64,000 bases of DNA, taken from positions 1,798,001 to 1,862,000 of the forward strand of contig NZ_BCUT01000001.1 of assembly GCF_001591365.1 (NCBI RefSeq), in the 5' to 3' direction. Source of the DNA: Variovorax paradoxus NBRC 15149. GTDB taxonomy: Bacteria; Pseudomonadota; Gammaproteobacteria; Burkholderiales; Burkholderiaceae_C. Shown piece by piece: positions 4,760 through 47,812 of the stretch (position 1 is the first letter of the stretch; every line of letters begins with the position of its first letter). The notes beneath the pieces are model-generated. The model did not search any database and was not told the DNA's origin. It saw only the letters and a program-made list of their open reading frames with translations. A program made the translations under genes and the position numbers.

Positions 4760-4804
4760 GAATGGGATCTCTTCTTGTTCGCCGCTTTGTGTTTGAGGTT
4801 CTTT

Positions 4805-5064
4805 GTTCGGGGCGCGCTCCCGCCGATGGGGTACCTTGCTCCGCGAATGTCCTCCGGCCTTCGGCCTCCCCCTTGATTTCGCTGCGCAAGGCACCCCATC
4901 GACGGGAGCGTTGGACAGAGCAGTTGTTGATCGGCGGTACACCAGCAGCGTGTCCAGGTGCACAGGGCATCGGGTGCTCCCCGCAGCGAAATCAAGGAGG
5001 AGGCCGCAGGCCGGGGGACATTCGCGGAGGGGAGTACCCGGTGGCCTGTGCACGCGCCCCGAAC
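4805..5064 (+). repeat. 260-bp interspersed inverted-repeat element, copy A
   Basis: This fills most of the 339-bp gap (4760-5098) between the DppC-like and the first ATPase gene; no gene is seen in it. It is bounded by 12-bp terminal inverted repeats of the form GTTCRGGGCGYG. Inside are two long hairpins. Hairpin 1 has arms starting GCTCCCGCCGATGGGGT and ending ACCCCATCGACGGGAGC. Hairpin 2 has arms based on GTGCACAGG and CCTGTGCAC. The tips share a roughly 40-bp core in opposite orientations (GCGAATGTC... against ...GACATTCGC). The same element, of 260 and 259 bp, recurs at 24471-24730 and 40642-40900. Small frames through it are not credible genes. Confidence 0.93.
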
Positions 5065-5098
5065 AACAGCAACAAGAGCAACAAAGGAGCGTGAAAAC

Positions 5099-24423: not shown

Positions 24424-24470
24424 AGTGCGGCGCTGCTTTTCCTTGCGCCGCGTTGTGTTCAAGGCTTGCT

Positions 24471-24730
24471 GTTCAGGGCGCGCTCCCGCCGACGGGGTAC
24501 CTTGCTCCGCGAATGTCCTCCGGCCTGCGGCCTCCCCCTTGATTTCGCTGCGCAAGGCACCCCATCAGCGGGAGCGTTATGCGGAGCGGTGGTTGATCAG
24601 CGATGCACAACGAGCGTGCCCTCGTGCACAGAGCATCGGGTGCTCCCCGCAGCGAAATCAAGGAGGAGGCCGCAGGCCGGGGGACATTCGCGGAGGGGAG
24701 TACCCGGTGATCTGTGCACACGCCCCGAAC
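24471..24730 (+). repeat. 260-bp interspersed inverted-repeat element, copy B
   Basis: Occupies the 375-bp gap 24424-24798 between dctM and the TRAP binding-protein gene; the rest of the gap shows no gene. Termini are GTTCAGGGCGCG (24471) and CACGCCCCGAAC (ending 24730), the same 12-bp inverted repeats as copy A and the same length to the base. Both internal hairpins and the shared roughly 40-bp core are intact. It starts about 47 bp after the upstream stop and ends about 68 bp before the next ATG. No target-site duplication is evident. Confidence 0.93.
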
Positions 24731-24798
24731 AGCATCGCCCCGAACGCTCCCAAAAACATCCATCGCTTAGTTGTGTTCAGAAAACAAGGAGACCTCTC

Positions 24799-34430: not shown

Positions 34431-34467
34431 TCTCCCTCCCCTCCCGGGGGAGGGCAGGGGTGGGGGC
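34431..34467 (+). repeat. REP-like palindrome R1
   Basis: 37-bp unit of consensus GCTCCYTCYCCC-N-CCGGGRGARGG followed by a YYGGGRTGRGGGC tail. Lies between the convergent amidase and dehydrogenase genes and forms an inverted pair with R2, separated by 29 bp, so the transcript can fold into a long hairpin. Confidence 0.85.
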
Positions 34468-34496: not shown

Positions 34497-34533
34497 GCCC
34501 CCATCCCAGCCTTCCCCCGGCGGGGGAAGGAGC
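34497..34533 (-). repeat. REP-like palindrome R2 (inverted partner of R1)
   Basis: Same 37-bp unit as R1 in opposite orientation (GCCCCCATCCC at the left end, GGGGGAAGGAGC at the right end). The R1-R2 pair has the layout of a bacterial interspersed mosaic element between 3' ends of convergent genes. It may double as a bidirectional terminator. Confidence 0.85.
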
Positions 34534-35518: not shown

Positions 35519-37396
35519 CTACATCAGCGGCGTGGCTTCGCTCTTTTGCAAAGCCCACATCTGCGCATAACGTCCCTGCTTCGCAAGCAGCTCGGCATGC
35601 GTGCCGCGCTCGACGATCACGCCCGCCTCGAGCACCAGGATCTCGTGCGCATCGACCACCGTCGAGAGGCGGTGCGCGATCACCAGCGTGGTCTTGTCCT
35701 GCGCGGCGCTCCTGAGCTCCGACTGGATGGCGCGCTCGTTGGCCGAATCGAGCGCCGAGGTGGCCTCGTCGAAGATCACGATCGGCGGGTTCTTCAGCAG
35801 CGTGCGCGCAATGGCCACGCGCTGCTTCTCGCCGCCCGACAGCTTGAGGCCGCGCTCGCCCACGGTGGTTTCATAGCCCCTGGGCGTGGCGGCGATGAAA
35901 TCGTGGATGCGCGCGGCGCGGGCTGCGCCTTCCACCTCTTCGCGCGTGGCGCCGGGGCGGCCGTAGGCGATGTTGTATTCGACCGTGTCGTTGAACAGCA
36001 CCGTGTCCTGCGGCACGATGCCGATTGCGCGCCGCACGCTGGACTGCTGCACTTCGCGGATGTCCTGCCCGCCGATGGTGATGCGGCCCTGCTGCACGTC
36101 GTAGAAGCGGTAGAGCAGCCGCGCGAGCGTCGACTTGCCCGAGCCCGAGGGGCCGACCACAGCCACCGTCTTGCCGGCCGGGATCTCGAAGCTCACGTGC
36201 TTGAGGATCGGCCGGTCGGGCTCGTAGGCGAAGCTCACGTCCTCGAAACGGATGGTGGAGTCGACGCCGCCGCCCTCACCCCGGCCCTCTCCCGGAGGGA
36301 GAGGGAGCAAAGACAGCGGCTGCGCGCCGGGCGCGTCGCGCACTTCGCGCTCCTTCTCCATCAGCACGAACATCTTGTCCAGGTCGGTCAGGCTCTGCTT
36401 GATCTCGCGGTAGATCACGCCCAGGAAGTTGAGCGGAATGTAGAGCTGGATCATGAAGGCGTTGACCATCACCAGGTCGCCCAGCGTCATGCGCCCTTCG
36501 ACCACGCCCGAGGTGGCGCGCCAGAGCATCAGCACCAGGCTGGTCGCGATGATCAGCTGCTGGCCGGTGTTGAGCATGCTCAGCGTGCGCTGGCTCTTGA
36601 TGGCGGCCTTGCGGTAGCGGTCCAGGCTGGCGTCGTAGCGTTTCGCCTCGAATTCCTCGTTGTTGAAGTACTTGACGGTTTCGTAGTTCAGCAGCGAATC
36701 GACCGCGCGGCTCTGGGCCATGGAGTCGAGCTCGTTCATGGTCTTGCGGAACTGGGTGCGCCACTCGGTCACGGTGACCGTGAAGGTGATGTAGAGCACC
36801 AGCGCCGCGCCCGTGATCCAGACGAACAGCGAATCGAACTTCACGCCCAGGATGGTGAGCACCAGCGCCAGCTCGATGATGGTGGGCACGATGCTGTAGA
36901 GCGACATCGAGATGAGCGAATGCACGCCGCGCGTGCCGCGCTCGATGTCGCGCGTCATGCCGCCGGTCTGGCGCTCCAGGTGGAAGCGCAGGCTCAGCGA
37001 ATGCAGGTGGCCGAACACCTCCAGCGCGATCTGCCGCGCCGTGCCCTCGGTGGCCTTGGCGAAGATCAGCTCGCGCAGCTCGCCGAAGAGCGCGGTCGAA
37101 AAGCGCAGCAGCCCGTAGGCCAGCAGGAGCCCGATGGGCACGATCAGCAGCGCCTGCGCCATGTCCGGCCTGGGCGTCATCGTGTCGATCAGGTTCTTGA
37201 GCAGCACCGGCACGCCCACGTTGGCCACCTTGGCGCCCACCATGAAGCCGAGCGCGGCGATCACCCGCCACTTGTACTGCCAGAGATAGGGGAAAAGGCG
37301 GCGCAGCGTCGCCCAGTCGGAGCGGTCGCTGCGCGCCGGCGCATGGCCGGTGGCGCTGTGGGGGGGAGGAGGTAGGGCTTCGCCGCTGCGGCGCAT
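35519..37396 (-). CDS. ABC exporter, Atm1/HMT1 type, with an in-frame REP insertion
   Basis: Fused half-transporter of 625 residues: six-helix membrane domain (about 35-340) and ATPase domain (about 380-620). Walker [10 protein letters not shown] at 415-423, signature LSGGEKQRVAIAR, Walker B PPIVIFDEATSALD. The segments FNNEEFEAKRYD, LNTGQQLIIATSL and QLYIPLNFLGVIYREI are typical of the Atm1/ABCB7 branch, which exports glutathione-linked metal or iron-sulfur precursors. ATG 37396 is taken; TTG 37405 is possible. Residues about 360-377, the linker between domains, are encoded by a 37-bp REP palindrome and absent from most relatives. Confidence 0.9.
   Translation of the reverse strand: MRRSGEALPPPPHSATGHAPARSDRSDWATLRRLFPYLWQYKWRVIAALGFMVGAKVANVGVPVLLKNLIDTMTPRPDMAQALLIVPIGLLLAYGLLRFSTALFGELRELIFAKATEGTARQIALEVFGHLHSLSLRFHLERQTGGMTRDIERGTRGVHSLISMSLYSIVPTIIELALVLTILGVKFDSLFVWITGAALVLYITFTVTVTEWRTQFRKTMNELDSMAQSRAVDSLLNYETVKYFNNEEFEAKRYDASLDRYRKAAIKSQRTLSMLNTGQQLIIATSLVLMLWRATSGVVEGRMTLGDLVMVNAFMIQLYIPLNFLGVIYREIKQSLTDLDKMFVLMEKEREVRDAPGAQPLSLLPLPPGEGRGEGGGVDSTIRFEDVSFAYEPDRPILKHVSFEIPAGKTVAVVGPSGSGKSTLARLLYRFYDVQQGRITIGGQDIREVQQSSVRRAIGIVPQDTVLFNDTVEYNIAYGRPGATREEVEGAARAARIHDFIAATPRGYETTVGERGLKLSGGEKQRVAIARTLLKNPPIVIFDEATSALDSANERAIQSELRSAAQDKTTLVIAHRLSTVVDAHEILVLEAGVIVERGTHAELLAKQGRYAQMWALQKSEATPLM
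36272..36308 (-). repeat. REP-like palindrome R3, inside the exporter gene
   Basis: 37-bp unit matching R1, R2, R4 and R5 (GCCCTCACCCCGG on the plus strand, then the palindrome around CCCGGAGGG). It is read in frame as LLPLPPGEGRGEGG in the Atm1-type exporter, in the flexible linker before the ATPase domain. Confidence 0.85.
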
Positions 37397-37437
37397 GAGG
37401 GACAATCGTGGTTGCTTAGTTTGTCCAGATTGTGCCC

Positions 37438-40586: not shown

Positions 40587-40641
40587 TGGGATCTCCTTAT
40601 GGGGTGCGCTCGTTTTTGGCGCTGTTGTTCGGGACGCCGTT

Positions 40642-40900
40642 GTTCAGGGCGTGTGCACAGGCCACCGGGTACTCCCCTCCGCGAATGTCCTCCGGCCTAC
40701 GGCCTCCCCCTTGATTTCGCTGCGGGGAGCACCCGATGCCCTGTGCACTGGGCACGCTCGTGGTGTACCACTGATCAACGACCGCTCCGCATAACGCTCC
40801 CGCTGATGGGGTGCCTTGCGCAGCGAAATCAAGGAGGAGGCCGCAGGCCGGGGGACATTCGCTTCGCCGCGTACCCCGTCGGCGGGAGCGCGCCCTGAAC
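40642..40900 (-). repeat. 260-bp interspersed inverted-repeat element, copy C
   Basis: Fills the 352-bp gap 40587-40938 between the SDR and isomerase genes; no gene is seen there. 259 bp, inverted on the chromosome relative to copies A and B but in the same orientation relative to transcription of the flanking genes. Termini are GTTCAGGGCGTG (40642) and CGCGCCCTGAAC (ending 40900). Outer stems follow the reversed orientation, yet the two roughly 40-bp cores keep the plus-strand order found in A and B. The inner stem next to one core has diverged (GCTTCGCCGCGTACC). Confidence 0.92.
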
Positions 40901-43706: not shown

Positions 43707-44909
43707 CTAGACGCGTTCGAAGATGCCTGCGGCGCCCTGCCCCATGCCTACGCACATCGTGACCATGCCGTACTTCAGGTTCTCGCGCCGCAGCGCATGC
43801 ACCACCGTGGCCGCGCGGATCGCGCCGGTCGCGCCGAGCGGATGGCCGAGCGCAATGGCGCCGCCCATCGGGTTGACCTTGCTCGGGTCGAGCCCCAGCG
43901 TGTTGATCACCGCGAGCGATTGCGCCGCGAAGGCTTCGTTGAGCTCGAACCAGTCGATGTCCTCGTGCTTGAGGCCGGCATAGCGCAGCGCGGCCGGAAT
44001 GGCCTCGATCGGGCCGATGCCCATGATGTGCGGCGGCACGCCCTTGCTCGCAAAGCTCACGAAGCGCGCGAGCGGCGTGAGGCCGTACTGCTTCACGGCC
44101 TTCTCGCTCGCGAGGATCAGCGCGCCTGCGCCGTCGGAAGTCTGCGAGCTGTTGCCCGCCGTGACGGTGCCGCGCGCGGCGAACACAGTGCGCAGCTTGG
44201 CCAGGCCTGCGAGGCTGGTGTCGGGGCGCGCGCCTTCGTCGAGGTTCACGGTGCGGGTCTTCGCGATCGATTCGCCGGCTTCAAGGTCCGGCGTGCGGTC
44301 GGTCACCTCGATCGGCGTGATCTCGTCGGCGAATTTGCCGGCCTTCTGCGCGGCCAGCGCCTTCTGGTGCGAGGCGAGCGCGAATTCGTCCTGCGCCTCG
44401 CGGCTCACTTTCCACTGCTGCGCCACCTTCTCGGCCGTGAGGCCCATGCCGTAGGCAATGCCGACATCGCCCTCGCGCTCGAAGATGGAAGGCGACAGCG
44501 ACGGCGAGTTGCCCATCATCGGCACCATGCTCATGCTCTCGACGCCCGCCGCGATCATCACGTCGGCCTCGCCCACGCGGATGCGGTCCGCAGCCATCTG
44601 CACCGCCGACAGGCCCGATGCGCAGAAGCGGTTCACGGTGATGCCGCCGATGCTGGTCGGCAGGCCCGCAAGCACCGCGCCGATGCGCGCGACGTTCAGG
44701 CCCTGCTGCGATTCGGGAATCGCGCAGCCGCAGATGATGTCCTCGATGGCCTTGGGGTCCAGGCCCGGCACTGCGGCAAGCGCCGCCTTGAGCGTGGTCG
44801 CGAGCAGGTCGTCGGGCCGGTAGTTGCGGAAGTAGCCGCGGTGCGACTTGCCGATGGGGGTGCGGGTGGCGGAGACGATGTAGGCGTCTTGGACTTGTTT
44901 GCTGCTCAT
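43707..44909 (-). CDS. fadA: Acetyl-CoA C-acyltransferase (thiolase, FadA/FadI-like)
   Basis: Thiolase of 400 residues, partner of the FadN-like enzyme at 45389. Catalytic Cys96 in [14 protein letters not shown], His in GGAIALGHPLGATGA and Cys in VTMCVGMGQGAAG. The start at 44909 overlaps the stop of the DUF559 gene (ATGA). AGGAGC sits just upstream, inside the DUF559 tail. In relatives the thiolase directly follows the 3-hydroxyacyl-CoA dehydrogenase gene; here a nuclease-like gene has come between. Confidence 0.92.
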   Translation of the reverse strand: MSSKQVQDAYIVSATRTPIGKSHRGYFRNYRPDDLLATTLKAALAAVPGLDPKAIEDIICGCAIPESQQGLNVARIGAVLAGLPTSIGGITVNRFCASGLSAVQMAADRIRVGEADVMIAAGVESMSMVPMMGNSPSLSPSIFEREGDVGIAYGMGLTAEKVAQQWKVSREAQDEFALASHQKALAAQKAGKFADEITPIEVTDRTPDLEAGESIAKTRTVNLDEGARPDTSLAGLAKLRTVFAARGTVTAGNSSQTSDGAGALILASEKAVKQYGLTPLARFVSFASKGVPPHIMGIGPIEAIPAALRYAGLKHEDIDWFELNEAFAAQSLAVINTLGLDPSKVNPMGGAIALGHPLGATGAIRAATVVHALRRENLKYGMVTMCVGMGQGAAGIFERV

Positions 44910-45325
44910 GAAGAAGCTCCTGGATTTTCTTGCTCCTTCCCCCGCCGGGGGAAGGTTGGGATGGGGGCCGGCGGCGTCAATTCGGCAAGCCGGCTGGCAA
45001 TCGCCTGGCGAACCCCATCAAGATTGGTGAACGGATCGTTCGATGCAAAGCGCAGCACATCGAAACCCTGCGCGCGGAAGAATGCCTCACGTCGCGCGTC
45101 GTAGCCCTGCTGCAGCTGGTGCTGCGATCCGTCGAGTTCGACGATCAGCTTGGGCGCAAGGCACGCGAAATCAGCGATGTAATTGCCCAGCGGATGCTGG
45201 CGCCGAAATTTCACGCCCAGTTGCTCAGCGCGCAGTCCACCCCAGAGCTTTCGCTCCGAATCGGTCATCTCGCGGCGAAGCACCTGCGCGTTTGCGCGAG
45301 CGTTGGGCGTGGACTGATTTCGCAT
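44906..45325 (-). CDS. DUF559 (PD-(D/E)XK nuclease-like) protein bracketed by REP palindromes
   Basis: 139-residue protein of the DUF559 family, which shares the Vsr/PD-(D/E)XK endonuclease-like fold. Landmarks: MTDSERKLWGGLRAEQLG, KFRRQHPLGNYIADFACL with the fold aspartate, LIVELDGSQHQLQ with the ELDG...H core, and FDVLRFASNDPFTN. The C-terminal tail PPAPIPTFPRRGKEQ is encoded by REP copy R4; the inverted copy R5 lies 19 bp before the start. It interrupts the fadN-thiolase pair. Function unproven; the layout suggests a REP-linked nuclease that inserted and was fixed. Confidence 0.85.
   Translation of the reverse strand: MRNQSTPNARANAQVLRREMTDSERKLWGGLRAEQLGVKFRRQHPLGNYIADFACLAPKLIVELDGSQHQLQQGYDARREAFFRAQGFDVLRFASNDPFTNLDGVRQAIASRLAELTPPAPIPTFPRRGKEQENPGASS
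44932..44968 (+). repeat. REP-like palindrome R4, forming the 3' end of the DUF559 gene
   Basis: 37-bp unit GCTCCTTCCCCC...GGGGGAAGG with the TTGGGATGGGGGC tail. Same family as R1-R3 and R5 and inverted with respect to R5, so R4 and R5 bracket the DUF559 gene. Confidence 0.85.
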
Positions 45326-45343
45326 CGTGCTTGGTTGGAGGTG

Positions 45344-45380
45344 GCCCCCATCCCTGCCTTCCCCCGGAGGGGGAAGGAGA
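45344..45380 (-). repeat. REP-like palindrome R5, upstream of the DUF559 gene
   Basis: 37-bp unit, opposite in orientation to R4, located in the 63-bp gap between the fadN stop (45389) and the DUF559 start (45325). Together with R4 it delimits a segment of about 450 bp that contains nothing but the DUF559 gene. Confidence 0.85.
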
Positions 45381-45388
45381 AATGCAGG

Positions 45389-47812
45389 TCAGTTGCGCAC
45401 CGGCTTCCCCGTGCTCAGCATCCCCATGATCCGCTCCTGCGTCTTCGGGTGCACGATCAGCGAGCAGAACGCCTTGCGTTCCAGCGCCATCAGGTATTCC
45501 TCGGTCACGAGCGAGCCTGCGTCCACGTCGCCGCCGGTCACCACGTTCGCGATCAGGCTCGCGATGTGGAAATCGTGCGCGCTGATGAAGCCGCCGTCGC
45601 GCATGTTCACGAGCTGGCCCTTGATCGTCGCGGCGCCGCTTCGGCCCGCCACGCGGAAGCTGCGGCGCAGCGGCGCGCGGTAGCCGGCGTCGGCCATGGC
45701 CCTGGCCTGCTGCAGCGCCACGTAGAGCAGCTCGTCCTTGTTCGGCACGATGATGTCGCTGTCCAGCAGGTAGCCAAGCTTCTTCGAATCGAGCGCGCCG
45801 GTGCCGACCTTGGCCATCGCGGCGGCCGTGAAGCCTTCGGTCAGGAAGGGCAGCAGGTCGGTGCCTGTGGAGGCCGATGCGTTCTCGGCCGCGCGGCGCG
45901 CAATGTAGGTCAGGCCGCCCGCGCCGGGGATCAGGCCCACGCCCACTTCGACCAGGCCGATGTAGCTTTCCATCGCGGCCACGCGCCTGGCCGAGTACAC
46001 AGCCAGCTCGCAGCCGCCGCCCAGCGCCATGCCGCGCACGGCGGAGACCACCGGCACGCTCGCGTAGCGGATCTTGAGCATCACGTTCTGCAGCTCTTCT
46101 TCCGCGCCTTCGACCGCGCCGATGCCCGCGACCACGAAGGCCGGCAGCATCGCCTGCAGGTCGGCGCCGACCGAGAACATCTCGTCGGGCGACCAGATCA
46201 CCAGGCCCTTGTATTCAGCCTCTGCGAGCTCGACCGCGGCGCCCAGCGCCTCGGCCACGTCGGGGCTGATGGCGTGCATCTTCGAATGGATGCTGGCAAT
46301 CAGCACTTCGCCGTCGAGCGTCCACACGCGCACATCGCCTTCGTCGGTGATCGTCGTGCCGGCGGTGTTGGCATCGGCTGCGTTCGCGCCGAGCACGCTC
46401 TCCGGGAACAGCTGGCGGTCGTGCACCGGCAGCTTGCGCTGCGGCACGAACTGGCCCTGCGATGCGCTCCACGAGCCTTCAGGCGTGTGCACGCCGCCGG
46501 CCTTGGCCACGGCGCCTTCGAACACCCACTGGGGCAGCGGCGCCGTGCTCAGCGCCTTGCCGGCATCGATGTCTTCCTGCACCCACTTGGCGACCTGCGC
46601 CCATCCTGCCTCCTGCCACAGCTCGAACGGCCCCTGCTTCATGCCGAAGCCCCAGCGCATCGCAAGGTCGATGTCGCGCGCGCTCTCGGCAATGTCGGCC
46701 AGGTGCACCGCGGCGTAGTGGAAGCCGTCGCGCAGGATGGCCCAGAGGAACTGCCCCTGCGGCCCTTCGCTCTCGCGCAAGAGCTTCAGGCGTTCGCCCG
46801 CAGGCTTCTTGAGCATGCGGCCGTACACCTCGTCGGCCTTCGCGCCGGCGGGCACGTACTCGCCGCTCTGCAGGTCGAAGCGCAGGATGTCGCGGCCCAC
46901 CTTCTTGAAGAAGCCGGCCTTGGTCTTCTGGCCCAGGTTGCCGAGTTCGAGCAGCTTGGCGAGCACCGCCGGCGTCGAAAAGTTGGCATAGAACGGATCG
47001 GTCTCGGCGTTCAGGTTGTCCTGCAGCGTCTTCACGACATGGGCCATGGTGTCCAGGCCCACCACGTCGGCCGTGCGGAAGGTACCCGAGCTCGCGCGGC
47101 CCAGCTTCTTGCCCGTGAGATCGTCCACCACGTCGGGCGTGAGGCCGAACTTCTCGACCTCCTTCAGCGTGGCCAGCATGCCGGCGATGCCGACGCGGTT
47201 GGCAATGAAGTTGGGCGTGTCGTGCGCGCGCACCACGCCCTTGCCGAGCGTGCTGGTGACGAAGGCCTCGAGGTCGTCGAGCACCTGCGGCTCGGTGGTG
47301 GGCGTGTTGATCAGCTCCACCAGGAACATGTAGCGCGGCGGGTTGAAGAAGTGAATGCCGCAGAAGCGCGGCTTCAGCGCTTCAGGCAGCGCCTCGCTGA
47401 GCTTGGTGATCGACAGGCCCGAGGTGTTCGAGGCCAGGATCGAATGCTTGGCGACGTGCGGCGCGATCTTCTTGTACAGGTCGAGCTTCCAGTCCATGCG
47501 CTCGGCAATGGCTTCGATAACGAGGTCGCACTCGCCGAGCTTGGCGAGGTCGTCCTCATAGTTGGCCTGCTCGATGAGCACCGCATCGGCCACGTCGCCG
47601 AGCGGCGCGGGCTTGAGCTTCTTGAGGTTGTCGATGGCGCGCGAGACGATGCCGTTCTTTGCTGCACCTTGAGCGACAGCTCCGGTCGCGTCCTTCGCGG
47701 CCAGATCGAACAGCACCACAGGCACGCGCACATTGACGAGGTGGGCCGCAATCTGCGCACCCATCACGCCGGCGCCGAGCACGGCGACTTTCTTCACTTG
47801 GAATCGGGACAT
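45389..47812 (-). CDS. fadN: 3-hydroxyacyl-CoA dehydrogenase / enoyl-CoA hydratase, FadN-like
   Basis: Large bifunctional beta-oxidation enzyme, 807 residues, with the domain order reversed compared with the fusion at 10504. The dehydrogenase comes first (VKKVAVLGAGVMGAQIAAHL at residues 7-26; FCGIHFFNPPRYMFLVELI; NFIANRVGIAGML). The hydratase-like domain follows near 500-700 (FSVGADLQAMLPAF, GGGCELAVYSARRVAAMES, LVEVGVGLIPGAGGL, so both glutamates are present). This order matches FadN/YusL-type proteins. Follows the DUF2147 gene on the same strand. Confidence 0.92.
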   Translation of the reverse strand: MSRFQVKKVAVLGAGVMGAQIAAHLVNVRVPVVLFDLAAKDATGAVAQGAAKNGIVSRAIDNLKKLKPAPLGDVADAVLIEQANYEDDLAKLGECDLVIEAIAERMDWKLDLYKKIAPHVAKHSILASNTSGLSITKLSEALPEALKPRFCGIHFFNPPRYMFLVELINTPTTEPQVLDDLEAFVTSTLGKGVVRAHDTPNFIANRVGIAGMLATLKEVEKFGLTPDVVDDLTGKKLGRASSGTFRTADVVGLDTMAHVVKTLQDNLNAETDPFYANFSTPAVLAKLLELGNLGQKTKAGFFKKVGRDILRFDLQSGEYVPAGAKADEVYGRMLKKPAGERLKLLRESEGPQGQFLWAILRDGFHYAAVHLADIAESARDIDLAMRWGFGMKQGPFELWQEAGWAQVAKWVQEDIDAGKALSTAPLPQWVFEGAVAKAGGVHTPEGSWSASQGQFVPQRKLPVHDRQLFPESVLGANAADANTAGTTITDEGDVRVWTLDGEVLIASIHSKMHAISPDVAEALGAAVELAEAEYKGLVIWSPDEMFSVGADLQAMLPAFVVAGIGAVEGAEEELQNVMLKIRYASVPVVSAVRGMALGGGCELAVYSARRVAAMESYIGLVEVGVGLIPGAGGLTYIARRAAENASASTGTDLLPFLTEGFTAAAMAKVGTGALDSKKLGYLLDSDIIVPNKDELLYVALQQARAMADAGYRAPLRRSFRVAGRSGAATIKGQLVNMRDGGFISAHDFHIASLIANVVTGGDVDAGSLVTEEYLMALERKAFCSLIVHPKTQERIMGMLSTGKPVRN

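Follow-up and report, generated by a model that had tools for sequence, protein, structure and literature searches.

The window analysed here is a stretch of 64,000 nucleotides from Variovorax paradoxus NBRC 15149, and it holds a DUF559 gene (44906..45325, minus strand) between two inverted REP palindromes. The gene encodes 139 aa and matches PF04480 in a Pfam scan with E=2.7e-36 and 124.2 bits against a cut-off of 20.6, covering profile positions 3-108 of 109. It is the sole DUF559 match in a profile search of its own genome. At E<=10 the Pfam scan of the 139 aa gave DUF559 and, below the cut-off, MTES_1575, with no Y1_Tnp and no second domain found. Both REPs are of subtype A with their tails facing the gene. 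R4 (44933..44967, minus strand) lies inside the open reading frame and codes for a stretch near the C-terminus, and R5 (45345..45379, plus strand) lies ~20 bp upstream of the ATG. The initial annotation had described this bracket around a 139-codon DUF559 gene whose C-terminus is encoded by R4, and the coordinates and the Pfam match agree with both points. The flanking genes are a thiolase gene (43707-44909, minus strand) and fadN (45389-47812, minus strand), names taken from the initial annotation and the conserved junction.

Our data indicate that the unit was inserted between fadN and thiolase, as had been claimed. The same locus without the insertion was sought in sister species, and an empty junction was found in a congener (G122), where only 11 bp separate the fadN stop from the thiolase ATG. 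The stretch of the window that differs from this junction (44904..45390, against ~16 bp in G122) holds the gene and both REPs. Most stretches that align between the two genomes are 85-92% identical at the nucleotide level. In 116 kb of G122 the REP pattern has no match, and the other three REPs of the window (R1, R2 and R3) are likewise missing there. No target-site duplication was seen in the comparison with G122, itself roughly 10% diverged. In four DUF559-less congeners (L264, L270, L279 and L287) the gap between fadN and thiolase is filled by a ~110-bp repeat-like stretch with a CCCCCTTGCAGGGGG-type hairpin or similar.

The DUF559 protein is predicted to have a Vsr-like nuclease fold of the PD-(D/E)XK type. 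Its structure model (pLDDT 79.7) has matches in 3hrl, a DUF559-type structure from Neisseria (Z 16.8), in the catalytic domain of the homing endonuclease I-Bth0305I (3r3p, Z 12.9) and in Vsr (1cw0, Z 10.3); Holliday-junction resolvases (Z at most 8.2) and TnsA (Z 6.2) match more weakly. Vsr itself nicks DNA at T:G mismatches and is associated with a cytosine methyltransferase. Cholera-toxin chains with E about 0.5-1 also appeared as matches and were taken as chance. Across 23 family members D52 is invariant and E63 and D65 are nearly so. The modelled fold and these putative catalytic Asp/Glu residues are consistent with the nuclease-like protein proposed at the outset, and a fold by itself shows no function.

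The window and the rest of the genome carry further REPs. R1 (34432..34466, minus strand, subtype B) and R2 (34498..34532, plus strand, subtype A) form a gene-less pair, which is a hetero-pair since R1 is of subtype B. R3 (about 36272..36313, plus strand, CCCTCTCCC type) is a 42-bp in-frame insertion that adds 14 codons to an ABC-transporter-like ORF (35519-37405, minus strand). The initial annotation had placed R1-R2, as a lone pair, and R3, as a lone unit, in one REP family. All three are real but they are not of a single type, R1 being of subtype B and R3 of a third, related type located inside an ORF and not between genes. The CCCTCTCCC-type REPs such as R3 are without a resident cognate enzyme here, and sister species have such an enzyme at the fadN-thiolase site; these REPs could be traces of a former resident enzyme. 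By eye, no GTAG-type tag, as defined in PMC3733652, is present in the REP units of the window. A different repeat of ~280-300 bp occurs three times in the window (4781-5083, 24446-24745 and 40623-40900) and is made up of two halves in inverted orientation, with the core CCTTGATTTCGCTGCG. This core does not occur in 116 kb of G122, and 400 kb of another congener (G632) contain it.

The REP pattern has 70 matches in the genome against 0 for a reversed control, hence the matches are not due to chance. The pairing analysis used 69 of the 70, one overlapping match being dropped, and gave 30 inverted pairs (60 units) and 9 singletons, with the tails pointing inward in 30/30 pairs. The pairs are made up of 27 A/B, 2 B/B and 1 A/A. 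The pair around the DUF559 gene is the only A/A pair and also the only wide one, with 385 bp between its units against 10-54 bp in the other 29. A gene between inverted REPs, accompanied by dispersed gene-less pairs, is a REPtron-like trait, and here it is realised by 30 inverted pairs of which one holds the gene; with no Y1_Tnp in the protein, the reading of this locus as a REPtron plan built on a nuclease-like protein stands. In single-strand folding the R1-R2 pair is more stable than shuffles (z -4.2); R4 and R5 each form a hairpin, yet they are not stabler than shuffles (z -1.0 and -1.3). Nothing between 34000 and 46000 reaches the gathering score in Rfam, and weak microRNA matches on R1-R2 were taken as chance.

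The bracket recurs at DUF559 loci in other genomes. We collected 236 loci, chosen by protein score and not by flank: 25 from the same family, 30 from the same genus (the best-scoring 30 of 50 DUF559-positive genomes), 30 from across the phylum, 75 for the most part from multi-copy genomes, and 76 from a set of named contigs (the best 80 loci less L135, L153, L170 and L188, whose flanks are too short). Because the phylum loci and the multi-copy genomes were picked by protein score, weak partial DUF559 domains are under-represented. A hairpin was counted if its stem has at least 7 bp and its purine arm points at the gene, and the same geometry slid along the loci served as control. Such oriented hairpins are found on both flanks at 152/236 loci, on one flank at 67/236 and on neither at 17/236, while the control gave both flanks in 2/2918 placements and one flank in 78/2918. 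REP units are thus enriched beside DUF559 genes, as the initial annotation had expected. It had also named orthologous loci that keep the gene but lack REPs as evidence against its proposal; this is not the rule, as 30/30 genus loci are REP-bracketed, and the 17 loci with no hairpin and the 67 with one are the exceptions.

De novo inverted repeats with a score of at least 20 were found at 23/25 family, 15/30 phylum and 42/76 contig loci (one of the 42, L207, is an N-run artefact), against 0/104, 2/126 and 0/1897 in the respective controls. Hosts of loci with a score >16 include several Proteobacteria classes, a Rickettsiales bin and Chloroflexi, as well as a Nitrospirales bin (17.5), an FCPU426 bin and a Gastranaerophilales bin. 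At four loci, all perhaps enterobacterial (L186, labelled Enterobacter, and L108, L110 and L117), only the downstream REP is present. For five weak DUF559 domains that are only partial (L053-L057), the REP pattern gave no match within 1.5 kb. At L113, L328 and L173 the DUF559 units have terminal repeats of ~100-150 nt, with a hairpin and purine tail kept at the ends.

The REPs of different types follow one plan, i.e. a pyrimidine arm, a loop, a purine arm, 2 bases or a second hairpin, and a G-rich tail. Using 235 of the 244 parsed REPs, we found that an 8-base window of the tail is a perfect mirror of the REP's own purine arm (T allowed on A) in 220/235, and the match falls to 33% when tails are swapped between genes. 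A plain direct repeat of tail and purine arm was rejected as the weaker description (131/235). A mirror tail is the sequence pattern of a putative intrastrand purine triplex, and at this level the REPs have the triplex-capable hairpin and tail that characterise TM/PIT. The second hairpin was sought in 155 genes with an inverted-repeat score of at least 20 and is present on both sides in 26. In 19 of these 26 its stem differs between the two sides with the pairing kept, and its loops are GNA in 35/52 cases. GNA triloops are unusually stable in single-stranded DNA. We infer that recognition may act on the single strand in its folded form.

The gene and its two REPs behave as one cognate unit. 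In multi-copy genomes, comparing a gene's upstream flank with its own downstream flank gives matches (score of at least 20) in 52/85 cases, against 35/178 with the downstream flank of another copy (p=3e-10), and DUF559 copies within one genome tend, by their flanking sequences, to carry different REPs. In all, 30/30 genus loci and, by the criteria of our script, 14/25 family loci are at the fadN-thiolase site, where two types of unit occur, one with CCTTCCCCC and one with CCCTCTCCCGC REPs. For 43 of these 55 loci we could compare the units (the other 12 are off-site, not recognised or too short). Within each unit type the proteins diverge in step with the genes on either side (Mantel r 0.75 and 0.89, p 0.001). 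When the two types are compared, the flanks are up to 94.6% identical and the proteins only 44-60%; therefore the gene and its REPs were replaced together. Two diverged gene-and-REP units thus alternate at one site among close relatives, and one genome (G060) has a gene-less REP pair there. In another genome (G394) two copies of a unit in unrelated flanks align over 589 columns (86%), approximately between the outer borders of the two REPs, and ~1 kb away this long REP occurs again as a gene-less pair. In two sets of genus sequences (13 and 18) dN/dS is about 0.10-0.12, which indicates purifying selection on the DUF559 gene.

The number of REPs in a genome goes with the presence of DUF559. We called a genome REP-rich if it has at least 10 REPs, and in the genus set DUF559-positive if it has a full-length match with E<1e-30. 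Among 100 congeners 47/50 DUF559-positive genomes are REP-rich compared with 15/50 negative ones, with medians of 78.5 and 1 REPs, respectively. The corresponding counts are 20/25 and 8/175 in 200 genomes of the family, and 33/95 and 9/303 in 398 genomes of Pseudomonadota. The association has p values of 8e-12, 8e-17 and 2e-15 for genus, family and phylum, relatedness not being corrected for. By comparison, REP-rich family genomes are 20/147 with and 8/53 without Y1_Tnp (OR 0.89, p 0.70), and Y1_Tnp is absent from 9/25 DUF559-positive family genomes. Few REPs of the searched form are found despite DUF559 in 3/50 genus, 5/25 family and 62/95 phylum genomes; the pattern used for these counts misses REPs with a second hairpin, and the one used for the phylum is slightly wider.

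Some REP-rich genomes have no DUF559. The congeners G632 and G646 have 105 and 133 REPs, an empty fadN-thiolase junction and no DUF559 match or gene trace, and 400 kb of G632 hold gene-less REP pairs of two types. Among the other REP-rich genomes of this kind, G589 and G636 have decayed gene copies, G616 has a lone REP at the site, and G493 belongs to the same genus as the DUF559-positive G472. A genome of the same family (G015) has 57 REPs, 20 Y1_Tnp matches and no DUF559, possibly a case of another mover. No DUF559 match was found in a profile search of an E. coli control genome.

The repeat itself has been described before. Holder et al. 2015 reported it as the triplex motif TM/PIT, a hairpin CCCTCTCCC..GGGAGAGGG with the tail GGGGTGAGGG that forms some inverted pairs and is reported from >260 genomes, with 23 motifs in E. 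coli MG1655; in the available text of that paper its describers linked no enzyme or mobility function to the motif (PMC4666352). Enterobacter sp. 638 was reported to have one hundred palindromes of this kind (PMC2869309). In known REPtrons and REPINs, too, a small, usually single-copy gene lies between inverted REPs and gene-less inverted pairs are dispersed, but the RAYT enzyme is an HUH transposase and the one here a putative Vsr-like nuclease. Unlike in a REPtron, the REPs here have a mirror tail, lack the GTAG tag and vary in number independently of Y1_Tnp. Since the defining HUH transposase is absent, the DUF559 unit is not a REPtron. GTAG REPs go with RAYTs, whereas CGTC-tagged REPs were likewise reported without a known or dedicated transposase (Di Nocera et al. 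2013), and their tag and loops, as described in that text, do not fit the DUF559-linked REPs (PMC3733652). Vsr and Caulobacter VsrA have the fold in common with our protein, and VsrA holds a DUF559 domain. Both are described or proposed as mismatch-repair enzymes, VsrA in a 2026 paper that finds it to drive the SOS response when the cytosine methyltransferase is missing and whose available text has no match for "palindrom" (PMC12907096). By structure the nearest enzyme of known action is the EDxHD homing endonuclease I-Bth0305I, a phage intron enzyme that has additional regions for DNA binding (PMC3943268), unlike the 139 aa with one domain found here. A literature search, which left out bioRxiv preprints and most subscription journals, yielded no paper tying DUF559 to these repeats. 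We know of no enzyme activity on REPs.

Because DUF559 is usually bracketed by a private REP pair in very different bacteria, our analysis suggests that the missing enzyme behind the spread of a common palindromic repeat family is probably DUF559. We think it rather likely that DUF559 recognises the REP cognate to it and disperses this REP, with single-stranded DNA as the most likely substrate, and we hold with similar confidence that the gene makes up one genetic unit with its two REPs, whose tails point inward, REPtron-like but built on a Vsr-like nuclease instead of an HUH transposase. REPs that become single-stranded, e.g. during replication, would take hairpin or triplex forms; the nuclease would bind an inverted pair and nick beside the hairpins, and the enclosed segment, either the gene or a short spacer, would be moved or copied elsewhere. 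Each nuclease would be dedicated to its own REP type, and the gene-less pairs would be its non-autonomous relatives, spread in trans. The initial annotation had suggested that DUF559 could spread this REP family, which the enrichment beside the gene supports, while catalysis and mobilisation by DUF559 we infer. Comparison of sequences gives the bracket, the cognate pairing, the co-occurrence with gene-less pairs, the fold-back design, the purifying selection and one duplicated unit. The weakest points of the proposal are this comparative basis and the REP-rich genomes without DUF559.

An alternative hypothesis could be that DUF559 is a homing-type endonuclease, which cuts empty alleles such as the fadN-thiolase junction so that repair copies the unit in, the REPs being mere borders spread by other means. 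The close structural relation to I-Bth0305I, the 30/30 genus loci at one site and the exchange of whole units there are in its favour. It is nevertheless unlikely, as it leaves unexplained both the cognate REP types and the genome-wide REP number that follows DUF559, and multi-copy genomes carry units at many unrelated sites; nor was an extra DNA-binding domain found in the 139 aa. Somewhat more doubtful still is a repair nuclease, Vsr-like or resolving hairpins and triplexes, beside which the REPs are regulatory or protective and are not spread by DUF559. The Vsr fold and the SOS link of Caulobacter VsrA (PMC12907096) agree with such a role, but private REP types for each gene copy, units swapped and duplicated whole, and the link between REP abundance and DUF559 do not.

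A RAYT that spreads the REPs with DUF559 as a passenger is very improbable. The own genome does have one Y1_Tnp gene, and G015 has its 57 REPs and 20 Y1_Tnp matches without DUF559; however, the number of REPs is not linked to Y1_Tnp (OR 0.89, p 0.70) and the 3-kb locus of the own genome's Y1_Tnp gene has no such REP. For these two reasons we set RAYT aside as the mover, the co-occurrence counts having largely refuted it. That REPs merely fall in short gaps, with the fadN-thiolase gap as a hot spot, we consider hardly credible: other repeats do occupy this gap in the congeners G602, G637, G647 and G620, but the bracket turns up at unrelated sites across several phyla while the control rates are close to zero, and the slid controls refute a coincidence.

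A dedicated enzyme of this kind would explain the origin of the REPs and give DUF559 a function. In its widest form, for which we see about even chances, the proposal is a new class of mobile elements in which a Vsr-like nuclease would read a hairpin-triplex in single-stranded DNA and disperse its own cognate repeat. Such elements would be the source of the TM/PIT palindromes in hundreds of genomes, among them orphan copies like those of E. coli, with enzyme-repeat pairs replacing each other at one site. Each enzyme is flanked by its predicted substrate and is thus directly testable, and the multi-copy genomes offer natural specificity swaps. To recognise DNA by reading a single-stranded hairpin-triplex would also be unusual for an enzyme. 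If this is true, the dispersal of REPs evolved more than once from unrelated enzymes.
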